Source: Gemmatimonadota bacterium (GTDB taxonomy: Bacteria > Gemmatimonadota > Gemmatimonadetes > Palauibacterales > Palauibacteraceae). Taken from it: DNA of 64,000 bases. The notes under the pieces were generated by a model. That model had not been told where the DNA came from and did not search any database. It saw only the letters and a program-made list of their open reading frames with translations. Of the stretch, positions 5,112-35,436 are shown piece by piece; within the stretch, counting starts at the first letter, position 1, and each line of letters starts with the position of its first letter. A program made the position numbers and the translations under genes. The stretch covers positions 92,919 to 156,918 of the forward strand of contig JAJDWE010000055.1 in NCBI GenBank assembly GCA_022825725.1, written 5' to 3'.

Positions 5112-6458
5112 GCCGCCGCGCGCGGGGCCGGAAAGCGGATAGAGGGCCGCACCGGCCTGCTCGCCCAGCTCCCCGGATCGCTTCGGCAGGCCGTTGCGCG
5201 TATCGACGATGATCTGTGCCCGCTCGAGCACGAGACCGTAGTCCACCTGCGGGTGATCCGTGATGACGACCGTGGCGTGGCTCGATGCGAGCGACTCCGC
5301 CGTCAGGGGCTGCGATTCCAGGTCTCCGCCCTCCAGCGCCAGCCGCGGCACGAACGGATCGTGGTATGAGACCTCGGAGCCCTGCCGCCGCAGAAGTTCG
5401 ATGACGTCGAGCGCCGGACTCTCGCGGACATCGCCGACGCCCGGCTTGTAGGCGACGCCCAGCAGCAGGACGCGGCTGCCGTTCAGCGGCAGCCGGTGCC
5501 GGTTGAGCGCCTGCGCGACGCGATCCACGACGTAGCGCGGCATCTCGGCGTTGACCTCGGCGGCGAGTTCGATGAAGCGGGTCCGGTACTGGAGCGTCCG
5601 CATCTTCCAGGCGAGGTACTGCGGGTCGATCGGGAGGCAGTGACCGCCCAGCCCGGGGCCGGGCGTGAAACGCATGAAGCCGTACGGCTTCGTCGCCGCG
5701 GCCTCGACGACCTCGCCGATGTCGATCCCCAGACGATCCGCGATGACCGCCATCTCGTTCACAAGCCCGATGTTCACGGCGCGGAAGGTGTTCTCGAGCA
5801 GTTTCGTGAGTTCCGCGACCTCGGGCGACGAAACGCTCACGACCTCGTCGATGACTTTCTCGTAGAGGCCATCGGCGAGTTCGCGGCAGGAGGCGGTCAA
5901 TCCGCCCACGACCTTCGGCGTGTTCGTGAAGGTGTAGGTGGGATTGCCGGGGTCTACGCGCTCGGGGCTGAAAGCGACGAAGAATTCCTTGCCCGCCGTG
6001 AGTCCGCCCTGTTCGAGTTCCGGCTGCAGGAGTTCCCGGGTCGTGCCCGGGTAGGTGGTCGACTCGAGGACGATGAGTTGACCGGGCCGGAGGCCGTCGC
6101 GGATGTGCCCGAGCGCGTCGAGTATGTGGGAAACGTCGGGATCGCCGGTCTTCCCGAGCGGGGTGGGGACGCAGATGATGACGGCGTCCATCTCCGCGAG
6201 CCGGCCGAAGTCCGTTGTCGCATCGAGGAGGCCGCTCTCGACGGCGGCGGCGACGGTTCGCGCCGGGACATCGCCGATGTGGGAGTCGCCACGCCTCACC
6301 CGCCGGACGACACGCTCGTCGATATCGAACCCCAGCGTCCGAAAGCCTGCGCCGGAGAACGCCGTGACGACCGGAAGACCGACATAGCCGAGCCCGAGCA
6401 CGCCCACCCTGGCCGTGCCCGACTCGATCTTCTTCCGGAGCGCCTCCCGGTGGCTCAC
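5001..6458 (-). CDS. UDP-N-acetyl-sugar / UDP-glucose 6-dehydrogenase (WbpA/WecC type)
   Basis: Oxidises C6 of a UDP-sugar to the uronic acid with two NAD+, for capsule or LPS precursors. Visible elements: GLGYVGLP (22-29), FDIDE (44-48), CVPTPLG (96-102), ESTTYPGTT (132-140), SPERVDPGN (164-172), ELTKLLENTFRAVNI with Lys219, and GPGLGGHCLPIDP with nucleophile Cys274. The SPERVDPGN signature favours the WbpA/WecC side over UDP-glucose dehydrogenase. Start is GTG 6458, preceded by GGGGGA. The protein is 485 residues, about 50 longer than WbpA; the last 37 codons overlap antisense with mltD. It follows moaC by 19 nt at the end of a long minus-strand operon. Confidence 0.9.
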   Translation of the reverse strand: MSHREALRKKIESGTARVGVLGLGYVGLPVVTAFSGAGFRTLGFDIDERVVRRVRRGDSHIGDVPARTVAAAVESGLLDATTDFGRLAEMDAVIICVPTPLGKTGDPDVSHILDALGHIRDGLRPGQLIVLESTTYPGTTRELLQPELEQGGLTAGKEFFVAFSPERVDPGNPTYTFTNTPKVVGGLTASCRELADGLYEKVIDEVVSVSSPEVAELTKLLENTFRAVNIGLVNEMAVIADRLGIDIGEVVEAAATKPYGFMRFTPGPGLGGHCLPIDPQYLAWKMRTLQYRTRFIELAAEVNAEMPRYVVDRVAQALNRHRLPLNGSRVLLLGVAYKPGVGDVRESPALDVIELLRRQGSEVSYHDPFVPRLALEGGDLESQPLTAESLASSHATVVITDHPQVDYGLVLERAQIIVDTRNGLPKRSGELGEQAGAALYPLSGPARGGSAPDLEPVAGMDPGRGEAIPFDEVARRYRMSAGDQP

Positions 6459-6477
6459 CGCGTCCCCCGTATCCGCA

Positions 6478-6978
6478 TCACTTCGCGTCCGCCTTCCAGG
6501 CGCCGGATCGTCCCCCGCGCTTCTCGAGGAGTCGAATCGGCCCCAGCGTCATGCCCCGGTCGATCGCCTTGCACATGTCGTAGAGGGCGAGCAGGCCGGC
6601 CGCGACGCCGGCCATCGCCTCCATCTCGACGCCCGTGCGCCACTCCGCCGAGGCCCGCACGCTGAGCCGGTAGGCCGGCGGCGTCTCCTCGGCTTCGAGC
6701 TCGACATCGACCGCGTCGAGCGGGACCGGATGGCAGAGCGGAATGAGCGCGGACGCCGCCTTGGCCCCCTGGATCGCCGCGATACGGGCCACGGCGAGCG
6801 CCTCTCCCTTCTCGACCTCGCCCTCCCGGATGGCATCGAGCGTCGCGCGGCGCATTCGGATCCGGCCCTCGGCCACGGCCACGCGTCGCGTGAGAGGTTT
6901 CTCTCCCACGTCGACCATTCGCACCCGCCCGTCCGGGTCCAGATGTGTGAGTCCGTCCACGAAGCTGCCTCCCGTCAC
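6478..6978 (-). CDS. moaC: Cyclic pyranopterin monophosphate synthase
   Basis: MoaC makes cyclic pyranopterin monophosphate in the first stage of molybdenum cofactor synthesis, working with the radical SAM enzyme MoaA (not in this window). The 166-residue protein has normal length. Motifs seen: HLDPDGRVRMVDVGEK near the N-terminus, ALIPLCHPVPLD, TGVEMEAMAGV and LYDMCKAIDRGM, which build the active site. The GTG start at 6978 shares a GTGA overlap with the holB stop, so it is probably translationally coupled. Its place behind cell-division and replication genes is not functionally obvious. Confidence 0.95.
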   Translation of the reverse strand: MTGGSFVDGLTHLDPDGRVRMVDVGEKPLTRRVAVAEGRIRMRRATLDAIREGEVEKGEALAVARIAAIQGAKAASALIPLCHPVPLDAVDVELEAEETPPAYRLSVRASAEWRTGVEMEAMAGVAAGLLALYDMCKAIDRGMTLGPIRLLEKRGGRSGAWKADAK

Positions 6979-21793: not shown

Positions 21794-22267
21794 GTGGGCG
21801 ATCGCGATGGGGTCCGGGTCATCGCCCGCAACAGGAAGGCTCGACACGACTACGAGGTGCTCGAACAGTTCGAGGCGGGACTCGTGCTGCGGGGCGCGGA
21901 GGTGAAGTCGCTCCGCGACGGGAAGGCGAGCTTCACGGACTCGTACGGGCGGATCGACGGCGGGGAGGCGTGGCTCCATAATCTCCACATTCCTCCGTAC
22001 GACAAGGCGACGATCGACGCCCCCGACCCGGTGCGCCGGCGAAAGCTCCTGCTCAGGAGGCGGGAGATCGATCGCCTGCGCTCGAAGACGCGCGAGAGCG
22101 GGCTGACGCTCGTGCCGCTGGACATCCATTTTCGGCGCGGCTTCGCCAAGGTCACGCTGGGGCTGGCGCGGGGGAAGAAGCACCGGGATCGGCGGGAGGA
22201 TCTGAAGAGGAAGACGATGCAGCGGGAGGCCGAGCGGGCGAAGAGGGAGGCGGCGCGTGGGGGTTGA
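21794..22267 (+). CDS. smpB: SsrA-binding protein
   Basis: SmpB binds tmRNA and brings it to stalled ribosomes for trans-translation. The 157-residue protein has normal length. Conserved parts: ARNRKARHDYEVLEQFEAGL, LRGAEVKSLRDGKASFTDSY, GEAWLHNLHIPPYD, RRRKLLLRRREIDRL, and a basic helical tail beginning ARGKKHRDRREDLK that enters the mRNA path. Start is GTG 21794. The tmRNA gene itself is not seen in the window. Its end overlaps the next gene by 11 nt. Confidence 0.95.
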   Translation: MGDRDGVRVIARNRKARHDYEVLEQFEAGLVLRGAEVKSLRDGKASFTDSYGRIDGGEAWLHNLHIPPYDKATIDAPDPVRRRKLLLRRREIDRLRSKTRESGLTLVPLDIHFRRGFAKVTLGLARGKKHRDRREDLKRKTMQREAERAKREAARGG

Positions 22268-23516
22268 CCGGGGAGCCGGGAGCGAACGCGACCGGTTCGG
22301 CGCGAGCCGGCGAATCGCGGTGGCCGCCGTCGTCGTCGCGCAGACCGTGCTTTCGGGAACCCTGTCGGGCATCGATGCGCAGACGCCCCCCGAGACGGTT
22401 CAGGCGGAGGTCTCGGGCCGCACCGTGAGTCTCGCCGTCGCGCGACACCGGGCCTACCCCGCGGTCGATGCGGCGGATCTCGCGCTCGCCCTGGAGAGCG
22501 TCGTCGAGGACGTCACGCGAAACGGCGTCTTTTTTCGGGCCCGCCTCCGTGGAGAGACGGTCTCGTTCGAGGCGGAGTCTCCCTTCTTCCGACACGGAGG
22601 ACGCGCGGTGCAGCTGGCGAATCCGCCCTACGAGGAGGGCGGCGCCTTCTGGCTTCCGGCGGAGTTCGTCACTCGGTGGGTGTCGGAGGGACCGCCGCCC
22701 GTCGCCGCCGTGTCCGAGGGGTCCGAGGGGTCCGCCGCATCCCCGGCGTCTCCGTCCCCCCCGCCGCCGCCGGACCCGTTGCCGGCCCGCGTCGACCCGA
22801 CGGCGCCGTGGCGCGTGATCATCGACCCGGGGCACGGCGGCCGGGACCCGGGAACGCTGGGCAGCGCGAGCCACGAGAAGGACATCGTGCTCGCGATCGC
22901 GAAACAGCTGTACGGGGAGCTTGAAGGGCACGAGATGTTCGAGCCTTACCTGACCCGGGAGACGGACGTCTACGTGGACCTCGACGTGCGGTCGCAGTTC
23001 GCGGTGGACCGGGCCGGGGATCTCTTCGTCTCGATCCACGCCAACGCCGCGGCGGACGAGCGGGCGCGCGGGTTCGAGACCATCTTCCTCGGGCAGGCCC
23101 GCTCCGAGGAGGCGCGCGAGGTCGCGCTGCGGGAGAACCGGGGTCCCGAGGTGGATGACGCCCCGGGTTCGCCCTCCGACGTTCAGTTCATCCTCGCGGG
23201 AATGGACCGTAATGAGAATTATGCGGAGTCGCGGCTCTTCGCCGGGTTCGTGCAGAACTCGATCCGAAGCGTCCGGGGCGGCGGGGCCCCCGACCGCGGC
23301 GTCATACAGGGCCCGTGGTGGGTGCTCCTCGGGGCGCTCGTGCGCATGCCGTCGGTGATCGTCGAAGTCGGTTTTCTCTCGAACGATGAAGAGGAGCGCT
23401 ACCTGAACGGCGCGGAAGGACAGGGAGCCATCGCGCGGGCGATCGCGGACGCGATCGTCGCGTACCGGGAGGACGTGCTGCGCCGTTACGCCCCCGCGCC
23501 GGAGTCGGGGTGCTGA
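22257..23516 (+). CDS. N-acetylmuramoyl-L-alanine amidase (Amidase_3)
   Basis: Cuts the bond between MurNAc and the stem peptide in the periplasm, as AmiA/B/C do at the septum. The 419-residue protein has an N-terminal signal (hydrophobic about 20-38, cleavage near GIDAQ), a short uncharacterised domain (about 45-140), a Pro/Ser linker, and an Amidase_3 domain (about 183-412). Zinc ligands and catalytic Glu are visible in IIDPGHGGRDPG, SHEKDIVLAIA, SIHANA and VEVGFLSNDEE. Start is GTG 22257, overlapping smpB by 11 nt. The EnvC-like activator at 8159-9430 is a natural partner. Recycling genes lie downstream. Confidence 0.92.
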   Translation: MGVDRGAGSERDRFGASRRIAVAAVVVAQTVLSGTLSGIDAQTPPETVQAEVSGRTVSLAVARHRAYPAVDAADLALALESVVEDVTRNGVFFRARLRGETVSFEAESPFFRHGGRAVQLANPPYEEGGAFWLPAEFVTRWVSEGPPPVAAVSEGSEGSAASPASPSPPPPPDPLPARVDPTAPWRVIIDPGHGGRDPGTLGSASHEKDIVLAIAKQLYGELEGHEMFEPYLTRETDVYVDLDVRSQFAVDRAGDLFVSIHANAAADERARGFETIFLGQARSEEAREVALRENRGPEVDDAPGSPSDVQFILAGMDRNENYAESRLFAGFVQNSIRSVRGGGAPDRGVIQGPWWVLLGALVRMPSVIVEVGFLSNDEEERYLNGAEGQGAIARAIADAIVAYREDVLRRYAPAPESGC

Positions 23517-24322
23517 GCGCCGGCGGCGGTGTGGCCGTGGAGCGCGCGGCGCCGGTGAGCCGGCGGGCAACGCTGCTCTCCACGCGCTTCGTGGCCCGCG
23601 ATACCTGGTGGCAGGAGTTCGACTGCCCGGACATCGCGGCCGCCTCGCTGCCCGGGCAGTTCGTCATGCTCGGCGTCGGGCTCGACGAGCCGGGAGCCTG
23701 GCTCCTCCCGCGTCCGTTCAGCGTCGGCTGGACGGGCCCAGGCGGCGAGGTCGGCATCCTCCTGCGCGCATACGGACAGGGCACCCGGGCGCTCGCGAAG
23801 CTGGAGGTCGGGCAGACCGCCCTCCTCCTCGGCCCGCTGGGCCGCCCCTTCGATACGGAGGGCGCGGATGTCGAGTGCGTCGCGGGCGGCGTCGGGCTCG
23901 CCCCGTTCATCTTCCTCGCGGCGCGCGAAGCGGCCGCCGGGCGGCGCGTGCGGCTCATCTACGGAGAGCGGGACGCCGGAGCCGTCTTCGACCCTGTGCT
24001 CATCGCCAGCCTCACGGATCACGACCCGGAGTTGTTCACGGAAGACGGGAGCGCCGGCCGGAAGGGCCTCGTGACCGCAGGCCTCGACCCGGCGTCGAGC
24101 GCGCTCCTCCTCGGCTGCGGTCCGACGCCGCTCCTGCGGGCGCTCGCGGCCTTCGCGCGCGAACACGGCCGCCGGCTCCAGGTCTCCGTGGAGGAACACA
24201 TGGGCTGCGGGATCGGCACCTGCCAGGGGTGCGTCGTGCGCGGGGCGGACGGACGCTGGGTGAAGGCGTGCATCGAGGGCTCCGTCTTCCCCGCGGAGGA
24301 ACTCGACTGGGGGGCGATCTGA
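23510..24322 (+). CDS. pyrK: Dihydroorotate dehydrogenase electron-transfer subunit
   Basis: PyrK carries FAD and a 2Fe-2S cluster and passes electrons from PyrD to NAD+. In the 270 residues one sees the ferredoxin-reductase fold: RPFSVGW (FAD), GGVGLAPFIFLA (nucleotide binding), LLGCGPTPLLRALA, and the cluster motif HMGCGIGTCQGC with a fourth Cys 12 residues on (CxxxxCxxC...C). Start is GTG 23510, overlapping the amidase by 7 nt. The gene ends in a CTGA overlap with pyrD, as expected for subunits of one heterotetramer. Confidence 0.93.
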   Translation: MLSAGGGVAVERAAPVSRRATLLSTRFVARDTWWQEFDCPDIAAASLPGQFVMLGVGLDEPGAWLLPRPFSVGWTGPGGEVGILLRAYGQGTRALAKLEVGQTALLLGPLGRPFDTEGADVECVAGGVGLAPFIFLAAREAAAGRRVRLIYGERDAGAVFDPVLIASLTDHDPELFTEDGSAGRKGLVTAGLDPASSALLLGCGPTPLLRALAAFAREHGRRLQVSVEEHMGCGIGTCQGCVVRGADGRWVKACIEGSVFPAEELDWGAI

Positions 24323-25284
24323 CCCCGGCCGCGGCGTCCCCGGGCCTCGTCCAGCGCGTCTTCGGGGCGGAGTTCCCGAGTCCCGTGCTCCTGGCGTCGG
24401 GCACCTGCGGCTACGGGCAGGAATACGCGGACCTCATCCCTCTCGACGAAATCGGCGGGCTCGTCACGAAGGCGGTGAGCCTCGAGCCGCGCCCCGGCAA
24501 CCCGCCGCACCGCGTCGCGGAGACGCCGGGCGGGATGATCAACGCGATCGGCCTCGAGAACCCCGGCCTACACGGCTTCATCGCGGAGAAACTTCCCTGG
24601 CTGCGCGAGCACCTCAGCCGCGCGCAGGTGTTCGTGAACGTCGTTGGGCACTCGGCGGAGGACTTCGCCGCCGTCGTGAGCGGACTCGACGGAGAGGACG
24701 GCTTCCTCGGGTACGAGATCAACGTCTCCTGCCCGAACGTGAAGGGCGGCACGATGTTCGGCACCGACGAGAGAGCGCTGGCCGACCTCGTGGCGCGGCT
24801 CCGCGGCTGCACGGAGCGGCCGCTCGTGATCAAGCTCACGCCGAACGTCCCCGACGTGGGCGACTTCGCCCGCATCTGCGAGGAGGCGGGGGCCGACGGC
24901 CTGAGCGCGATCAACACCTTCCCCGGGATGGTCGTCGACATCTCGCGGCGCGAACCGCTCATCGGCAACCGGTCCGGCGGCGTGAGCGGGCCCGCGATCC
25001 TTCCCATGGGGGTGTACGCGACGTGGCGGGCGCGGCAGACGTGCGGGCTTCCGATCATGGGGATCGGGGGGATCCGCAACGCGGAAGATGCGTTGCAGTA
25101 CGTCCTCGCCGGCGCCTGTCTCGTCCAGATCGGGACGGCGTCGTTCGTCGACCCGGGCGCGGCCGTGGCGGTCCACGAGGGGCTCTCGGAGTACATGCAG
25201 GCGAACGGAGTGGCACGCCTCGAGGATCTCGTGGGGGCCCTCCAGTCCCGGCCGGGCAGGGGCCCCGCGATTCCGGCGGGCTGA
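24319..25284 (+). CDS. pyrD: Dihydroorotate dehydrogenase, class 1B catalytic subunit
   Basis: Oxidises dihydroorotate to orotate in pyrimidine synthesis. Conserved features: PSPVLLASGTCGYG, TKAVSLEPRPGNPPHR, NAIGLENPG, YEINVSCPNVKGG with the class 1B catalytic Cys, VIKLTPNV, AINTF, GVSGPAILP, IMGIGGIRNAEDAL and GTASFVDPG. The start is not an ordinary codon: no ATG, GTG or TTG lies where the family begins. CTG 24319, in a CTGA overlap with pyrK and after a GGGGGGCGAT stretch, gives a 321-residue protein starting (M)TPAAASPGLVQRVFG, which is the right length. GTG 24268 would add 17 residues and overlap pyrK by 55 nt. Confidence 0.9.
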   Translation: MTPAAASPGLVQRVFGAEFPSPVLLASGTCGYGQEYADLIPLDEIGGLVTKAVSLEPRPGNPPHRVAETPGGMINAIGLENPGLHGFIAEKLPWLREHLSRAQVFVNVVGHSAEDFAAVVSGLDGEDGFLGYEINVSCPNVKGGTMFGTDERALADLVARLRGCTERPLVIKLTPNVPDVGDFARICEEAGADGLSAINTFPGMVVDISRREPLIGNRSGGVSGPAILPMGVYATWRARQTCGLPIMGIGGIRNAEDALQYVLAGACLVQIGTASFVDPGAAVAVHEGLSEYMQANGVARLEDLVGALQSRPGRGPAIPAG

Positions 25285-26765
25285 TGAGTCCCGGCAAGGC
25301 GCTGGTCGACCTCGCGTCGGCGCTCTTCGTCGAGTGGCACGGCGAACCGCCGGTGGACATCCGCCCCGTCGCCTCGGACGGCTCCGCCCGCAGCTACTGG
25401 CGTCTCACCGCCGGGGATGGGGCATCCGCCGTCGGCGCCCACGGGCCCGACGCGATGGAGAACCGGGCCTTTCTCTCCTATTCCCGCACGCTCCGCGAAC
25501 TCGGCCTGCCCGTGCCGGAGGTGTACGGGGCGGACGAGAAATCCGGCGTGTGGCTCCTCGAGGATCTCGGCGACATGACCCTCTTCGACGCGATCAAGGA
25601 GGCGCGCGACCCGGGATCCGACGCCCTCCCCGACGCCGTCCTCCCCCTCTACCGGCGGGTGCTCGAGATCCTGCCGCGCTTCCAGGTCGAGGGTGGGAAG
25701 CGGATCGACTTCCGGCGGGCCTATCCCCGCGCGGCGTTCGACCGGCAGTCCATCCTCTGGGACCTCAACTACTTCAAGTACCACTTCCTGAAGCTCGCGC
25801 ACGTCCCGTTCAACGAGGCGCACCTGGAGCGCGACTTCTCGCGGCTCGCCCGCCACCTGCTCGCCGGCGACCGGTCCTGGTTCCTGTACCGCGACCTCCA
25901 GTCCCGCAACGTGATGGTGCGGCAGGGGCCGGAGGGTCCGGAACCCTGGTTCATCGACTACCAGGGGGGACGGCGCGGGGCGCTGCAGTACGACGTGGCG
26001 TCGCTTCTCTACGACTCGAAGGCGAATCTCGCGGACCGGCACCGGGAGGCGCTGCTCGACCACTACATCGGCGTCATCGAATCGCACGGGGTGGCCCGGC
26101 GCGAGGAGTTCCTCGAACTCTGGCCGGGGTACGTCCTCGTGCGTTTGCTACAGGCGCTCGGGGCCTACGGCTACCGGGGGTTCTTCGAGCGAAAGCCGCG
26201 CTTCCTGCAGAGCGTGCCGTACGCGGCGGAGAACCTGCGGGGGTTGCTCGAGGGAGGTCTGCCCGTGGATGTGCCCGAGCTCGAGGGGGCGCTGCGCGGG
26301 ATCGTCGATCGGTGGGGGCGCGCGGCGGAGGCGCCGGCGGTCGAAGGAGGGCTGGAGGTGACGGTCTCGAGCTTCCGGTATCCCGGCGGATATCCGGCGG
26401 ACACGTCGGGTCACGGCGGAGGATACGTGTTCGACTGCCGCGGGCTCCCGAACCCGGGCCGGGAGGAAGCGTACCGGGAACTCACGGGTCTCGATGAGGA
26501 GACGGTCGCCTTCATCTCGGCGCGGCCGGAGGCGCAGGAGTTCTGGGAACGCGTGCGGGGGATCCTGGACGCGCACATCGCGAACTACCTGGAGCGCGGG
26601 TTCCACAGCCTGAGCGTGCATTTCGGGTGTACGGGCGGACAGCACCGCTCGGTGTACATGGCGGAGCGGCTGCGCCGGCACCTGAGCGTGCGTTTCCCCG
26701 GCGTGCGCGTGGAGGTCACGCACCGGGAATCGGCGGACTGGCCCCGCCGTCCCGCGAGGGTCTGA
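25284..26765 (+). CDS. AmgK-like amino-sugar kinase fused to a RapZ C-terminal domain
   Basis: A 493-residue fusion. Residues about 1-335 form an APH-fold kinase like AmgK, which phosphorylates C1 of MurNAc/GlcNAc in peptidoglycan recycling: LLEDLGDMTLFD, Brenner motif YRDLQSRN with catalytic Asp204, and FIDYQGG with metal-binding Asp225. Residues about 356-490 match the C-terminal half of RapZ: VSSFRYPGGYP, YVFDCRGLPNPG, LTGLDEETVAFI and FGCTGGQHRSVYMAE (Cys449, His454). That half of E. coli RapZ senses glucosamine-6-phosphate and controls GlmS; the RapZ P-loop half is absent. ATG 25284 overlaps the pyrD stop by 1 nt. A MurU-like gene follows after 5 nt. Not an antibiotic-resistance kinase: context and LLEDLGD argue against it. 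Confidence 0.85.
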   Translation: MSPGKALVDLASALFVEWHGEPPVDIRPVASDGSARSYWRLTAGDGASAVGAHGPDAMENRAFLSYSRTLRELGLPVPEVYGADEKSGVWLLEDLGDMTLFDAIKEARDPGSDALPDAVLPLYRRVLEILPRFQVEGGKRIDFRRAYPRAAFDRQSILWDLNYFKYHFLKLAHVPFNEAHLERDFSRLARHLLAGDRSWFLYRDLQSRNVMVRQGPEGPEPWFIDYQGGRRGALQYDVASLLYDSKANLADRHREALLDHYIGVIESHGVARREEFLELWPGYVLVRLLQALGAYGYRGFFERKPRFLQSVPYAAENLRGLLEGGLPVDVPELEGALRGIVDRWGRAAEAPAVEGGLEVTVSSFRYPGGYPADTSGHGGGYVFDCRGLPNPGREEAYRELTGLDEETVAFISARPEAQEFWERVRGILDAHIANYLERGFHSLSVHFGCTGGQHRSVYMAERLRRHLSVRFPGVRVEVTHRESADWPRRPARV

Positions 26766-26770
26766 GACGC

Positions 26771-27517
26771 GTGGAGGCGATGATCTTCGCGGCGGGCCGG
26801 GGGCGCCGTCTGCGGCCGCTCACCGACACGACTCCCAAGGCGCTCGTCGACTTCGGCGGCGTCCCCCTCCTGCAGCGCGTCGCCGGGAACCTCGTCGCGG
26901 CCGGCGCGCACCGGCTGATCGTGAACGCGCACTACCTCGCCGGGCAGGTGGCGGCGTGGGCCGAGGCGTCGTCGCTGGGCGTCCCGGTGTTCGTGTCGCG
27001 GGAAGACGAGGAGTCGCCGGCCCCCCTGGACACGAGCGGCGGACTCTTCCACGCGCGGTCGCTGTTCGAGGGGCGGGAACCCTTCCTCCTCCACAACTGC
27101 GACGTTGCGACCGATGTCGACCTCCCCGCGCTGTATCGCGCGCATGTCGAGGGGGAGGCGCGGGACGGGCGGCTGGCCACGCTCGCGATTGCGGAGCGGG
27201 AGACGTCGCGCCCTCTCCTGGTGGACGGACGGGGCGTGTGCGGGCGTGCGAACCGGGATGAGGGGTGGGAGGTCGTCGCGCGGGAGCCGTCGGGCGCGGA
27301 CGAAGCCCGGGAGTACGGCTTCTGCGGCATCCACGCGATCTCGCCGCGCGTGTTCGAACGCTACGCGGAAGGAGGCGTCTTCTCGATCATGGATTCGTAC
27401 ATGGACTGGATCGGGGACGGGGAGCACGTCGCGGTGTTCGATGCGACGGGCGCGGCGTGGTACGACATTGGGACGCCCGAGCGGCTGGACGCCGCGCGGC
27501 GCGCCTTCGGCGCATGA
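26771..27517 (+). CDS. murU: MurU-like sugar-1-phosphate nucleotidyltransferase
   Basis: Joins UTP (or another NTP) to a sugar-1-phosphate; in the AmgK-MurU route this yields UDP-MurNAc and bypasses de novo synthesis. The 248-residue protein begins VEAMIFAAGRGRRLRPLTDT and continues TPKALVDFGGVPLLQRV, the pyrophosphorylase signature, with metal Asp in LLHNCDVATDVDL and EYGFCGIHAISPRVFE further on. Start is GTG 26771, since the family starts MxAMILAAG; ATG 26780 would have GGAGG only 2 nt away. The short length (no beta-helix domain) fits MurU rather than GlmU. Substrate is inferred from the kinase encoded just upstream. Confidence 0.8.
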   Translation: MEAMIFAAGRGRRLRPLTDTTPKALVDFGGVPLLQRVAGNLVAAGAHRLIVNAHYLAGQVAAWAEASSLGVPVFVSREDEESPAPLDTSGGLFHARSLFEGREPFLLHNCDVATDVDLPALYRAHVEGEARDGRLATLAIAERETSRPLLVDGRGVCGRANRDEGWEVVAREPSGADEAREYGFCGIHAISPRVFERYAEGGVFSIMDSYMDWIGDGEHVAVFDATGAAWYDIGTPERLDAARRAFGA

Positions 27518-28521
27518 GGGTGATCCGCGTCCGGGAGACCGGCGGCCCGGAGGTCCTCGAACTCGTGGAACGGGACGACCCGGTTGCGGGGGCGGGCGAG
27601 GTGCGGGTGCGCGTGCGGTGCGCCGGGATCAACCGGGCCGACCTCCTGCAGCGGATGGGCCGCTATCCGGCGCCCGCGGACGCTCCACCGGACATCCCGG
27701 GACTCGAGTTCGCCGGCGAGATCGAGGCGGTGGGGGCCGGCGTCACCGGCTGGTCCGCGGGCGACCGCGCGATGGGCATCCTGGGCGGCGGCGGATACGC
27801 CGAGCGCGTGACGGTCCCGGCCGGGCAGCTCCTGCCCGTCCCGCCGACGCTGAGCTGGACCGAGGCGGGCGCGATCCCGGAGGTCTTCCTCACCGCGGCG
27901 GACGCCCTCATCGAGCGCGGCCGTCTGCGCCCCGGCGAGCGCGTGCTCGTGCACACGGCCGGTGGCGGCGTGGGAACCGCCGCCCTGCAGCTCGCCCGGG
28001 CGGCGGAAGCGGGCTCGATCATCGCCACGGCGTCGGCCGCCAAGCTCGACCGCATCCGCGAGACCGGACTGCCGCACGACCTCGCCGTCGACCGCAGGGC
28101 CGGCTCCTTCGCCGACGAGGTCGCCCGCCACACCGACCGGGCCGGCGCCAACGTCATCCTCGACACCGTCGGCGCCCCGTACTGGGAAGCGAACATTGCG
28201 AGCCTCGCCACCCTCGGCCGCCTCGTCATCGTCGGCGTCATGGGCGGCATGAAGGTCGAAGCCAACCTCCGGACCCTCATGGGGAAGCGCGCGACCGTCG
28301 TCGGCACCGTCCTCCGCGCGCGCTCGAAGGAGGAGAAGGCGACCCTCACGGAGATGTTCGCGACCCGCTTCCTCCCCGGCTTCACGGCGCCGGAGGACGA
28401 CCCCTCCCACCTGCGCCCCGTCATCGACCGCGTCTTCCCCCTCGCCGAGGCCGCCGAGGCCCACCGCTACGTCGAGTCGAACCAATCCTTCGGCAAAGTC
28501 CTCCTCGACACCGACCCCTAA
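27514..28521 (+). CDS. Zinc-free NAD(P)H:quinone oxidoreductase (MDR superfamily)
   Basis: A 335-residue medium-chain reductase of the PIG3/QOR type. GroES-like half: CAGINRADLLQRMGRYP, PGLEFAGEIEAVG, GDRAMGILGGGGYAE. Rossmann half: VLVHTAGGGVGTAALQLARA, NVILDTVGAPYW, VIVGVMGG. The Cys/His ligands of zinc alcohol dehydrogenases are missing, as in quinone oxidoreductases. It would reduce quinones or enals with NADPH. ATG 27514 lies in an ATGA overlap with the murU-like gene, so it closes the operon, though a link to cell-wall recycling is not apparent. Confidence 0.85.
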   Translation: MRVIRVRETGGPEVLELVERDDPVAGAGEVRVRVRCAGINRADLLQRMGRYPAPADAPPDIPGLEFAGEIEAVGAGVTGWSAGDRAMGILGGGGYAERVTVPAGQLLPVPPTLSWTEAGAIPEVFLTAADALIERGRLRPGERVLVHTAGGGVGTAALQLARAAEAGSIIATASAAKLDRIRETGLPHDLAVDRRAGSFADEVARHTDRAGANVILDTVGAPYWEANIASLATLGRLVIVGVMGGMKVEANLRTLMGKRATVVGTVLRARSKEEKATLTEMFATRFLPGFTAPEDDPSHLRPVIDRVFPLAEAAEAHRYVESNQSFGKVLLDTDP

Positions 28522-28613: not shown

Positions 28614-28633
28614 CTCATGTCGCGGAGATCGTG

Positions 28634-28897
28634 ATGCGCACCGTCAATATGCATGAAGCCAAAACACACCTTTCCCGTCTTGTCCAGGCGGCCGTGGATG
28701 GGGAACCGTTCGTCATCGCGCGGGCAGGCAAACCTCTGGTCAGGGTCATTTCGATCGAAGCCCGCGGGGGAGCCGAGGTGCGCCGCACGGGGTTCATGGC
28801 TGGAGAAATCTCCGTTCCTGACGACTTCGACCGCATGGGATCGGCGGAGATCGAAGCGATGTTCGAGGGCGACGAAGTCACGTTGCGCGACGCGTGA
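28634..28897 (+). CDS. Phd/YefM-family antitoxin
   Basis: An 87-residue antitoxin. Its N-terminal MRTVNMHEAKTHLSRLVQAA and PFVIARAGKPLVRVISI are the Phd/YefM fold that binds DNA; the C-terminal part (MAGEISVPDDFDRM, then an acidic end) should wrap around the toxin. ATG 28634 is chosen because GGAG lies about 6 nt upstream; a GTG three nt earlier is possible. The toxin follows in a GTGA overlap, so synthesis is coupled. Expression is probably self-repressed through the direct repeats upstream. Confidence 0.88.
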   Translation: MRTVNMHEAKTHLSRLVQAAVDGEPFVIARAGKPLVRVISIEARGGAEVRRTGFMAGEISVPDDFDRMGSAEIEAMFEGDEVTLRDA

Positions 28898-29280
28898 CGG
28901 TGCTCCTCGACACGCATGTGCTGTTATGGGCCGCGGGCGCGCCGGACCGGCTGTCGCCCGATGCGCGGGCGGTGATCGAAGATCCGGAGACGCCCCTCGC
29001 CTACAGCACCGCTTCGCTGTGGGAAATCGCGATCAAGAGCGGACTGGGACGGACCGACTTCAGCGTCGATTCGCGCGTTCTTCGCCGAAGATTGCTGGCC
29101 CACGACTATACCGAACTGCCGGTGACCGGTGCCCACGCGGCGGTCGTGGATCTCTTGCCGCCCATCCACAAGGATCCCTTCGATCGCCTATTGGTGGCCC
29201 AGGCACAACTCGAGGGACTGACGCTCTGGACGGTCGACGAAACCCTCGCGCGTTACTCCGGCCCGATTCGCGTGCTCTAG
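28894..29280 (+). CDS. PIN-domain toxin (VapC-like ribonuclease)
   Basis: A 128-residue PIN-domain RNase. The acidic metal-binding residues are in place: Asp6 (LLDTHVLLW), Glu44 (SLWEIAIK), Asp97 (HKDPFDRLLVAQA) and Asp115 (WTVDE). The HKDPFDR segment places it in the subgroup usually paired with Phd-type antitoxins. It is expected to cut tRNA or other RNA when free. Start is GTG 28894. The gene is complete and its active site appears intact, so the module could be functional. Confidence 0.9.
   Translation: MTVLLDTHVLLWAAGAPDRLSPDARAVIEDPETPLAYSTASLWEIAIKSGLGRTDFSVDSRVLRRRLLAHDYTELPVTGAHAAVVDLLPPIHKDPFDRLLVAQAQLEGLTLWTVDETLARYSGPIRVL

Positions 29281-33561: not shown

Positions 33562-35436
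<1,875 letters not shown>

Follow-up and report, generated by a model that had tools for sequence, protein, structure and literature searches.

In a 64,000-nucleotide stretch of a Gemmatimonadota genome (contig JAJDWE010000055.1; the whole stretch is called the window here), one 493-residue protein joins an AmgK-like sugar kinase to the C-terminal domain of RapZ (RapZ_C), and a gene for a MurU-like nucleotidyltransferase follows directly. The kinase-MurU pair probably serves the salvage of muramic acid. RapZ_C, known so far from an RNA regulator of E. coli, may itself carry out a recycling step that has been overlooked: we put at just short of even the chance that it is a phosphatase acting on a sugar 6-phosphate, most simply on N-acetylmuramic acid 6-phosphate (MurNAc-6-phosphate). 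From the architecture, the operon, its conservation and its co-occurrence with other genes, all seen directly, we infer substrates, chemistry and an order of steps. AnmK would supply MurNAc-6-phosphate; the RapZ_C half would take off the 6-phosphate through a cysteine-containing C-X5-R-S loop, which in Pseudomonas is the step of MupP, an unrelated HAD phosphatase; the AmgK-type anomeric kinase half would make a sugar 1-phosphate, most likely MurNAc-alpha-1-phosphate; and the MurU-like enzyme encoded next door would use the latter to form uridine diphosphate-MurNAc (UDP-MurNAc). As a whole, the fusion or an equivalent three-gene operon would lead from MurNAc-6-phosphate to UDP-MurNAc by phosphatase, kinase and uridylyltransferase, bypassing MurQ. 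The parts concerned are:

25284..26765, + strand: kinase-RapZ_C fusion gene, 493 residues, ATG start (open reading frame call, Pfam, homologues)
25284..26291, + strand: AmgK-like kinase half, APH fold, residues 1-336 (Pfam APH; PDB match 3csv)
25887..25910, + strand: kinase catalytic loop YRDLQSRN with Asp204 and Asn209 (51-row alignment)
25950..25970, + strand: metal-binding motif FIDYQGG with Asp225 (51-row alignment)
26355..26729, + strand: RapZ C-terminal domain, residues 358-482 (PF22740; model against 5o5s)
26628..26651, + strand: C-X5-R-S loop CTGGQHRS, Cys449 to Ser456, strand-loop-helix (conservation in 81 proteins, secondary structure)
26771..27517, + strand: MurU-like nucleotidyltransferase gene, GTG start at 26771, 5 nt past the fusion stop (Pfam, NCBIfam)

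The two-part architecture, first proposed in a sequence-only reading of the window as an APH kinase followed by a RapZ C-terminal half in one 493-residue frame, was borne out by Pfam: APH (PF01636) covers residues 25-262 above its cut-off (E-value 5.2e-11), and PF22740 covers residues 358-482 (E 4.7e-32; 111 bits, cut-off 27). Aligned with E. coli RapZ, the fusion shows 37% identity over 128 residues (E 4e-20), significant in the C-terminal part only, and the nearest PDB entries by sequence are 3csv for the kinase (E 4e-20) and E. coli RapZ 5o5s for the remainder (E 4e-16). Both kinase motifs stand as that reading gave them. In a 51-row alignment R203, D204, R208 and N209 as well as F223, D225, Q227, G228 and G229 are invariant, and Asp204 and Asp225 are also invariant in a 13-row alignment (each alignment includes the window's fusion protein); their roles in the catalytic loop and in metal binding, carried over from the APH family, are presumably the same here. 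The fusion reaches 49 and 48 bits with the two NCBIfam AmgK models, whose equivalog cut-offs are 550 and 500. AmgK is the best NCBIfam kinase model despite the low score, and because the scores fall so far under the cut-offs we call the kinase AmgK-like, not a proven AmgK. The full-length AlphaFold2 model (mean predicted local distance difference test score, pLDDT, 92; predicted template modelling score 0.71) has a weak linker at residues 348-354, and its top fold match is 3csv. Modelled alone (pLDDT 91), the RapZ_C half superposes on 5o5s, the E. coli RapZ C-terminal domain, with a Z-score of 19.8 and a root-mean-square deviation of 1.6 over 123 residues; after RapZ, the next fold match is phosphofructokinase at Z 6.8. 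RapZ_C occurs once in the window's genome, within the fusion gene, and the RapZ N-terminal P-loop half (PF03668) was not found in that whole genome.

The kinase-RapZ_C fusion is a common architecture. A profile search placed RapZ_C in 43 of 298 genomes of the window's phylum (44 matches), always in frames of at least 474 residues apart from one gene split by a contig end (G011, both pieces seen). Because long frames occur by chance at the guanine-cytosine (GC) content of this phylum, the kinase was checked directly, and it is fused to or beside RapZ_C in 43 of 43. Across the 298 genomes just two matches to the RapZ N-terminal half turned up, both weak and partial and only one above the cut-off, so that RapZ_C in this phylum is a kinase partner and not RapZ. 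Beyond the phylum, a scan of named genomes with the 13-row alignment matched at least 594 stretches and confirmed at least 583 of them as relatives. The best 80 of these (the named loci below, 50 of which also fed the 51-row alignment and one further alignment) come mostly from metagenome assemblies whose titles span at least eight phyla, with Gemmatimonadota, Bacteroidota, Calditrichota, Elusimicrobia, Neomarinimicrobiota, Ignavibacteria, Acidobacteria, Planctomycetota, Deferribacteres and Opitutia among the names. The sequence-only reading had supposed that databases might hold the architecture and knew of no experimental account, which agrees with our result: the parts are known and their combination is widespread, and a literature search, with subscription journals mostly outside it, found no paper that describes the kinase-RapZ_C fusion or links RapZ to AmgK or MurU.

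The partnership with MurU is equally recurrent. The GTG start at 26771 places the gene 5 nt past the fusion, as first noted, and the best listed NCBIfam model for its product is MurU (NF045761, 119 bits, under the equivalog cut-off of 250). The order kinase, RapZ_C, MurU holds in 20 of 20 loci of the window's phylum (19 genomes); in eight further phylum loci MurU comes next in six, and the other two stop at RapZ_C. Among the 80 named loci, 54 carry a MurU-like gene on the same strand within 700 nt downstream; the remainder comprise one locus without room, two with MurU further downstream and 23 with none in the available stretch, which in some is short. MurU is the only widely recurring neighbour in this set (the next cluster reaches 8 loci), so the partnership claimed from the window alone is conserved far beyond the genus. 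One genome of the same family (G150) carries two kinase-RapZ_C-MurU sets, at C1:649180 (L127) and C1:2960418 (L126).

A second phylum uncouples the two halves. RapZ_C is present in 25 of 213 Bacteroidota genomes, in 20 of them within frames of 478-524 residues that each include the kinase and in five as a separate gene of 133-135 residues (frames of 134-149). Three of these five split loci (L117, L120, L121) show the order kinase, RapZ_C, MurU, the RapZ_C gene of L117 lying at 6205-6603, and a fourth (L119) has the stand-alone RapZ_C beside a kinase gene without MurU nearby, so that a kinase gene adjoins it in four of five genomes. In the fifth (L118; 5938-6336, - strand) the stand-alone gene lies by an endonuclease I gene with a type IX secretion tail, and the kinase is on another contig. 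Among NCBIfam models, the three split kinases scanned match AmgK best and the three MurU-like proteins scanned match MurU best, all below equivalog cut-offs. In a midpoint-rooted tree of 48 selected kinases, in which L169 sits on a very long branch, the split genes fall inside the fused-kinase clade and require at least two changes. Since RapZ_C is kept when uncoupled from the kinase, it appears to have its own job in the recycling pathway, and its occurrence as a separate gene in kinase-MurU operons is one reason to consider it a phosphatase.

The pathway itself offers a place for such an enzyme. AnmK makes MurNAc-6-phosphate, and the two fates described for it are the etherase MurQ or the succession MupP, AmgK and MurU (PMC5371407, PMC5371409); an E. 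coli murQ deletion strain given AmgK and MurU is reported to have required MupP to use endogenous MurNAc-6-phosphate (PMC5371409). A phosphatase role for RapZ_C is thus suggested because the known AnmK-MupP-AmgK-MurU route needs a MurNAc-6-phosphate phosphatase. AnmK by itself proved a weak marker, being present in 41 of 43 phylum fusion genomes and also in 197 of 255 others, and for this reason MurQ was compared among AnmK carriers. MurQ was scored absent where no TIGR00274 match reached E 1e-12, a level set by cross-matches to SIS-domain proteins (stronger cross-matches in 38 named genomes lie mostly in frames of about 610-640 residues), and partial or low matches were counted as present (G209, G089 and G162 in the phylum; G343, G348, G353, G358, G428 and G472 in Bacteroidota; G312, G314 and G323 among the named genomes). 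In the window's phylum, 6 of the 41 AnmK genomes that carry RapZ_C lack MurQ, compared with 1 of the 197 that do not carry it (Fisher p 1e-4); the sole exception, G173, matches AnmK only more weakly (E 1.4e-43). A replicate drawn later from Bacteroidota gave 8 MurQ-less genomes among 17 AnmK genomes with RapZ_C and 0 among 130 without (Fisher p 5e-9). Within family f6 the figures are 3 of 6 against 0 of 25 (p 0.004), and within f3 1 of 5 against 0 of 3, which by itself is no evidence. The six MurQ-less phylum genomes belong to six genera in three families and are 82-97% complete, one of them (G098) being a single contig. Of 38 of the 80 named fusion genomes, a set with no control group, 25 gave a MurQ match, above the cut-off in 22 and under it in three; no MurQ was found in the other 13, which include records titled Planctomycetota and Elusimicrobia. 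In the two phyla compared, MurQ-less AnmK genomes almost exclusively carry RapZ_C, which argues for the phosphatase. In G347, one of the MurQ-less genomes (locus L172), about 10 kb separates AnmK from the kinase-RapZ_C-MurU set, and both are on the same strand; open reading frame calls around AnmK in L122 and L123 were too ambiguous at their GC content and were set aside.

Kinases without RapZ_C give a further contrast. We searched 80 of the 213 Bacteroidota genomes, namely all 25 with RapZ_C and 55 of the 188 without (64 drawn evenly, nine of them dropped by hand). The kinase was found in 25 of 25 of the former, and a distant kinase (27-34% identity) in 12 of the 55 (L157-L168). MurU adjoins 11 of these distant kinases (the contig stops at the twelfth), and none of the stretches showed a match to RapZ_C. 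All 12 genomes are without AnmK and without MurQ, against AnmK in 17 of the 25 kinase-RapZ_C genomes. That a kinase-MurU clade without RapZ_C also lacks AnmK fits a need for RapZ_C where MurNAc-6-phosphate is made, and it adds to the case for a phosphatase.

The domain itself looks equipped for catalysis. A C-X5-R-S/T motif joining a strand to a helix is the signature of protein tyrosine phosphatase (PTP)-type cysteine phosphatases, and in the secondary structure of the RapZ_C model the C-X5-R-S loop has this same setting. In 81 fusions (the window's and the 80 named loci) together with five stand-alone RapZ_C proteins, Asp182, Arg184, Asn188, Pro189, Cys247, Gly249, Gly250, His252, Arg253, Ser254 and His276 (E. 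coli RapZ numbering) are invariant. The eight polar or charged positions among them (182, 184, 188, 247, 252, 253, 254, 276), kept in 81 of 81, speak for a phosphatase. Seven basic RapZ positions that face RNA in E. coli (PMC9841335) are kept unevenly: positions 170, 184, 194, 196, 211, 238 and 251 are basic in 70, 81, 18, 51, 31, 0 and 8 of the 81 fusions, and in the window protein two of the seven are basic. The RNA surface thus appears partly lost, and the conserved core resembles an active site; the near-absence of basic residues at 238 and 251 further favours catalysis. A clear-cut loss of RNA binding, which would be a side argument, does not follow, positions 170 and 184 being mostly or always basic. 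For the same reason, the proposal that the fusion acts without the small RNAs GlmY and GlmZ stands in part: the RapZ N-terminal half was not found, five of the seven RNA-facing residues in the window protein are non-basic, and neither RNA had an Rfam match in the 64-kb window, the only part of the genome scanned, while the surface across the 81 fusions is mixed and relatives may still bind RNA.

Published observations on E. coli RapZ enter the case in the same direction, because its pocket resembles a cysteine phosphatase loop, its Cys247 is essential and a bound sugar phosphate was likely transformed. Khan and Gorke (2020) saw in the pocket a likeness to the cysteine-dependent tyrosine phosphatase loop and raised, as a speculation, hydrolysis of glucosamine-6-phosphate (GlcN6P) (PMC7199280). 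The loop is described as holding sulphate or malonate (PMC5737377), C247A and C247S are reported to abolish RapZ activity (PMC9841335), and density in a crystal with GlcN6P was interpreted as probably a product of chemical transformation (PMC9841335). The loop resemblance is therefore already in print; a connection to AmgK and MurU is in none of the literature found. We suggest, more tentatively and at odds clearly below even, that RapZ_C is fundamentally a phosphatase for amino-sugar 6-phosphates that works through its cysteine. In AmgK-MurU operons it would then be the MurNAc-6-phosphate phosphatase that is missing in many non-Proteobacteria, and E. coli RapZ would descend from it or be a cousin of it, with the same active site turned into a metabolite sensor and RNA-binding platform.

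Several observations weigh against a phosphatase. The Fisher tests ignore phylogeny, their counts being genomes and not independent events; three of the eight MurQ-less Bacteroidota (G354, G437, G551) group closely in the kinase tree, and the 12 kinases without RapZ_C form one clade, so the AnmK-less contrast may be a single event. The AnmK-less, MurQ-less state is common anyway, occurring in 47 of the 188 Bacteroidota without RapZ_C. Genome incompleteness could mimic MurQ loss, yet G098 is a single contig and the replicate agrees. Eight of the 25 RapZ_C Bacteroidota are without AnmK, seven of them also without MurQ, and MurNAc-6-phosphate would therefore need another source there. MurQ is kept in 37 of 43 phylum RapZ_C genomes, which made a simple MurQ-or-fusion exclusion wrong; the window's own genome has both AnmK and MurQ, and the fusion there would consequently be a parallel anabolic branch. 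On the protein side, the sequence-only reading had held that loss of the pocket residues would tell against its assignment: Cys247, Gly249, His252 and Arg253 are kept in 81 of 81 and Thr248 in 80 (Ser in one); Gly stands in all 81 (Gly392 in the window protein) in place of His190, which the E. coli protein needs. Arg184, RNA-facing in E. coli, is invariant, and position 170 is Lys or Arg in 70 of 81. E. coli RapZ is reported to co-purify with GlcN6P, with a dissociation constant of 10 nM for the C-terminal domain (PMC7073468), a behaviour more like that of a binding protein than of an enzyme with fast turnover. The structural matches listed include no cysteine phosphatase, an absence that is itself no evidence, and no report of enzyme activity for a fusion was found in the literature. 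Neither the fusion nor three stand-alone RapZ_C proteins matched a HAD family (E 0.001); MupP elsewhere in the genomes was not searched for.

The tight GlcN6P binding is also the natural starting point for a sensor, in which RapZ_C would bind an amino-sugar 6-phosphate (GlcN6P or MurNAc-6-phosphate) and tune the kinase in cis or in trans so that salvage tracks the pool, much as the sequence-only reading had proposed. Fusion to or adjacency with the kinase in 43 of 43 phylum and 24 of 25 Bacteroidota genomes suits a regulator, and a regulator could become dispensable along with AnmK. Sensing alone leaves the near-confinement of MurQ-less AnmK to RapZ_C genomes unexplained, the eight invariant polar or charged residues, the cysteine of the C-X5-R-S loop included, exceed the apparent needs of binding, and the E. 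coli pocket His190 is lost. We consider sensing possible but doubtful; a catalytic step on MurNAc-6-phosphate fits the data better and ranks above it, both being roles that we infer. That RapZ_C serves the kinase only structurally or for dimerisation is very improbable: the E. coli domain does dimerise on its own (PMC7073468), but the domain persists as a separate gene where split from the kinase, and its strongest conservation falls on polar loop residues. The link to MurNAc might itself be wrong and the kinase-transferase pair salvage another sugar, such as N-acetylglucosamine or heptose, given that all AmgK and MurU model matches lie below equivalog cut-offs and that RapZ_C Bacteroidota without AnmK exist. 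We think this unlikely: AmgK and MurU remain the best models for the split kinases and MurU-like proteins scanned, and the AnmK/MurQ association in two phyla points to muramic acid.

In the window the fusion and MurU lie in a single same-strand run with three genes upstream:

22257..23516, + strand: Amidase_3 gene, lineage-specific neighbour (Pfam)
23510..24322, + strand: PyrK-like gene, lineage-specific neighbour (Pfam, NCBIfam)
24319..25284, + strand: PyrD gene, lineage-specific neighbour (Pfam, NCBIfam)

The ATG of the fusion overlaps the pyrD stop by 1 nt. The amidase gene was rightly placed in this run from the sequence; the functional role given to it and to pyrK/pyrD, the latter as suppliers of uridine triphosphate for MurU, found no support. 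Among the 20 phylum loci, Amidase_3, PyrK and PyrD, together with SmpB, adjoin the fusion in the same-genus L141 alone, and we rejected them as parts of the system. In L125, L131, L140 and L143 at most about 2.1 kb lies upstream, too short for the amidase comparison, and room for PyrD is wanting in L125 alone. Seen only within the genus, the amidase and uridine triphosphate links look local. Downstream, a PIG3-type quinone oxidoreductase gene (27514-28521, + strand) overlaps the MurU stop by 4 nt; it is retained in L141, with a partial match in L127. Directly after the operon comes a Phd/YefM antitoxin and PIN-domain pair (28631-29280, + strand). A thiamine pyrophosphate riboswitch at 33575-33673 (+ strand; 59.5 bits, gathering score 54.3) is the sole Rfam match in the window at gathering thresholds.

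If RapZ_C is indeed a phosphatase, a new phosphatase type would be added to cell-wall recycling in many phyla, the RapZ regulator would gain an evolutionary source that explains its phosphatase-like pocket and essential Cys247, and the question whether RapZ turns over GlcN6P would become testable on a simpler protein of about 133 residues.

Compared with known systems, the locus is closest to the AmgK-MurU pathway of Pseudomonas, Caulobacter and Tannerella. Both have a gene for an APH-fold kinase with a MurU-type transferase gene behind it; AnmK accompanies RapZ_C in 41 of 43 genomes of the phylum and in 17 of 25 Bacteroidota, and MurQ can be missing. The locus differs in having RapZ_C in cis or next door, in having MurU as its only widely recurring neighbour and in AmgK model scores far under the cut-offs. 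E. coli carrying AmgK and MurU of T. forsythia serves as a positive control for MurNAc-probe labelling (PMC13041923). With E. coli RapZ the fusion shares the C-terminal domain at 37% identity, its predicted fold and the C-X5-R-S loop, whereas it has an APH-type kinase half in a genome where the RapZ P-loop half was not found, and the fusions replace His190 and several RNA-facing residues and carry an H/N-GGG insert. MupP would act at the same pathway step, but is a HAD enzyme (PMC5371407), and the RapZ_C proteins scanned match no HAD family. PTP-type cysteine phosphatases share with RapZ_C the C-X5-R-S loop between strand and helix; its best fold matches are RapZ and then phosphofructokinase, with no such phosphatase among the matches listed, and its phosphatase role is a prediction.

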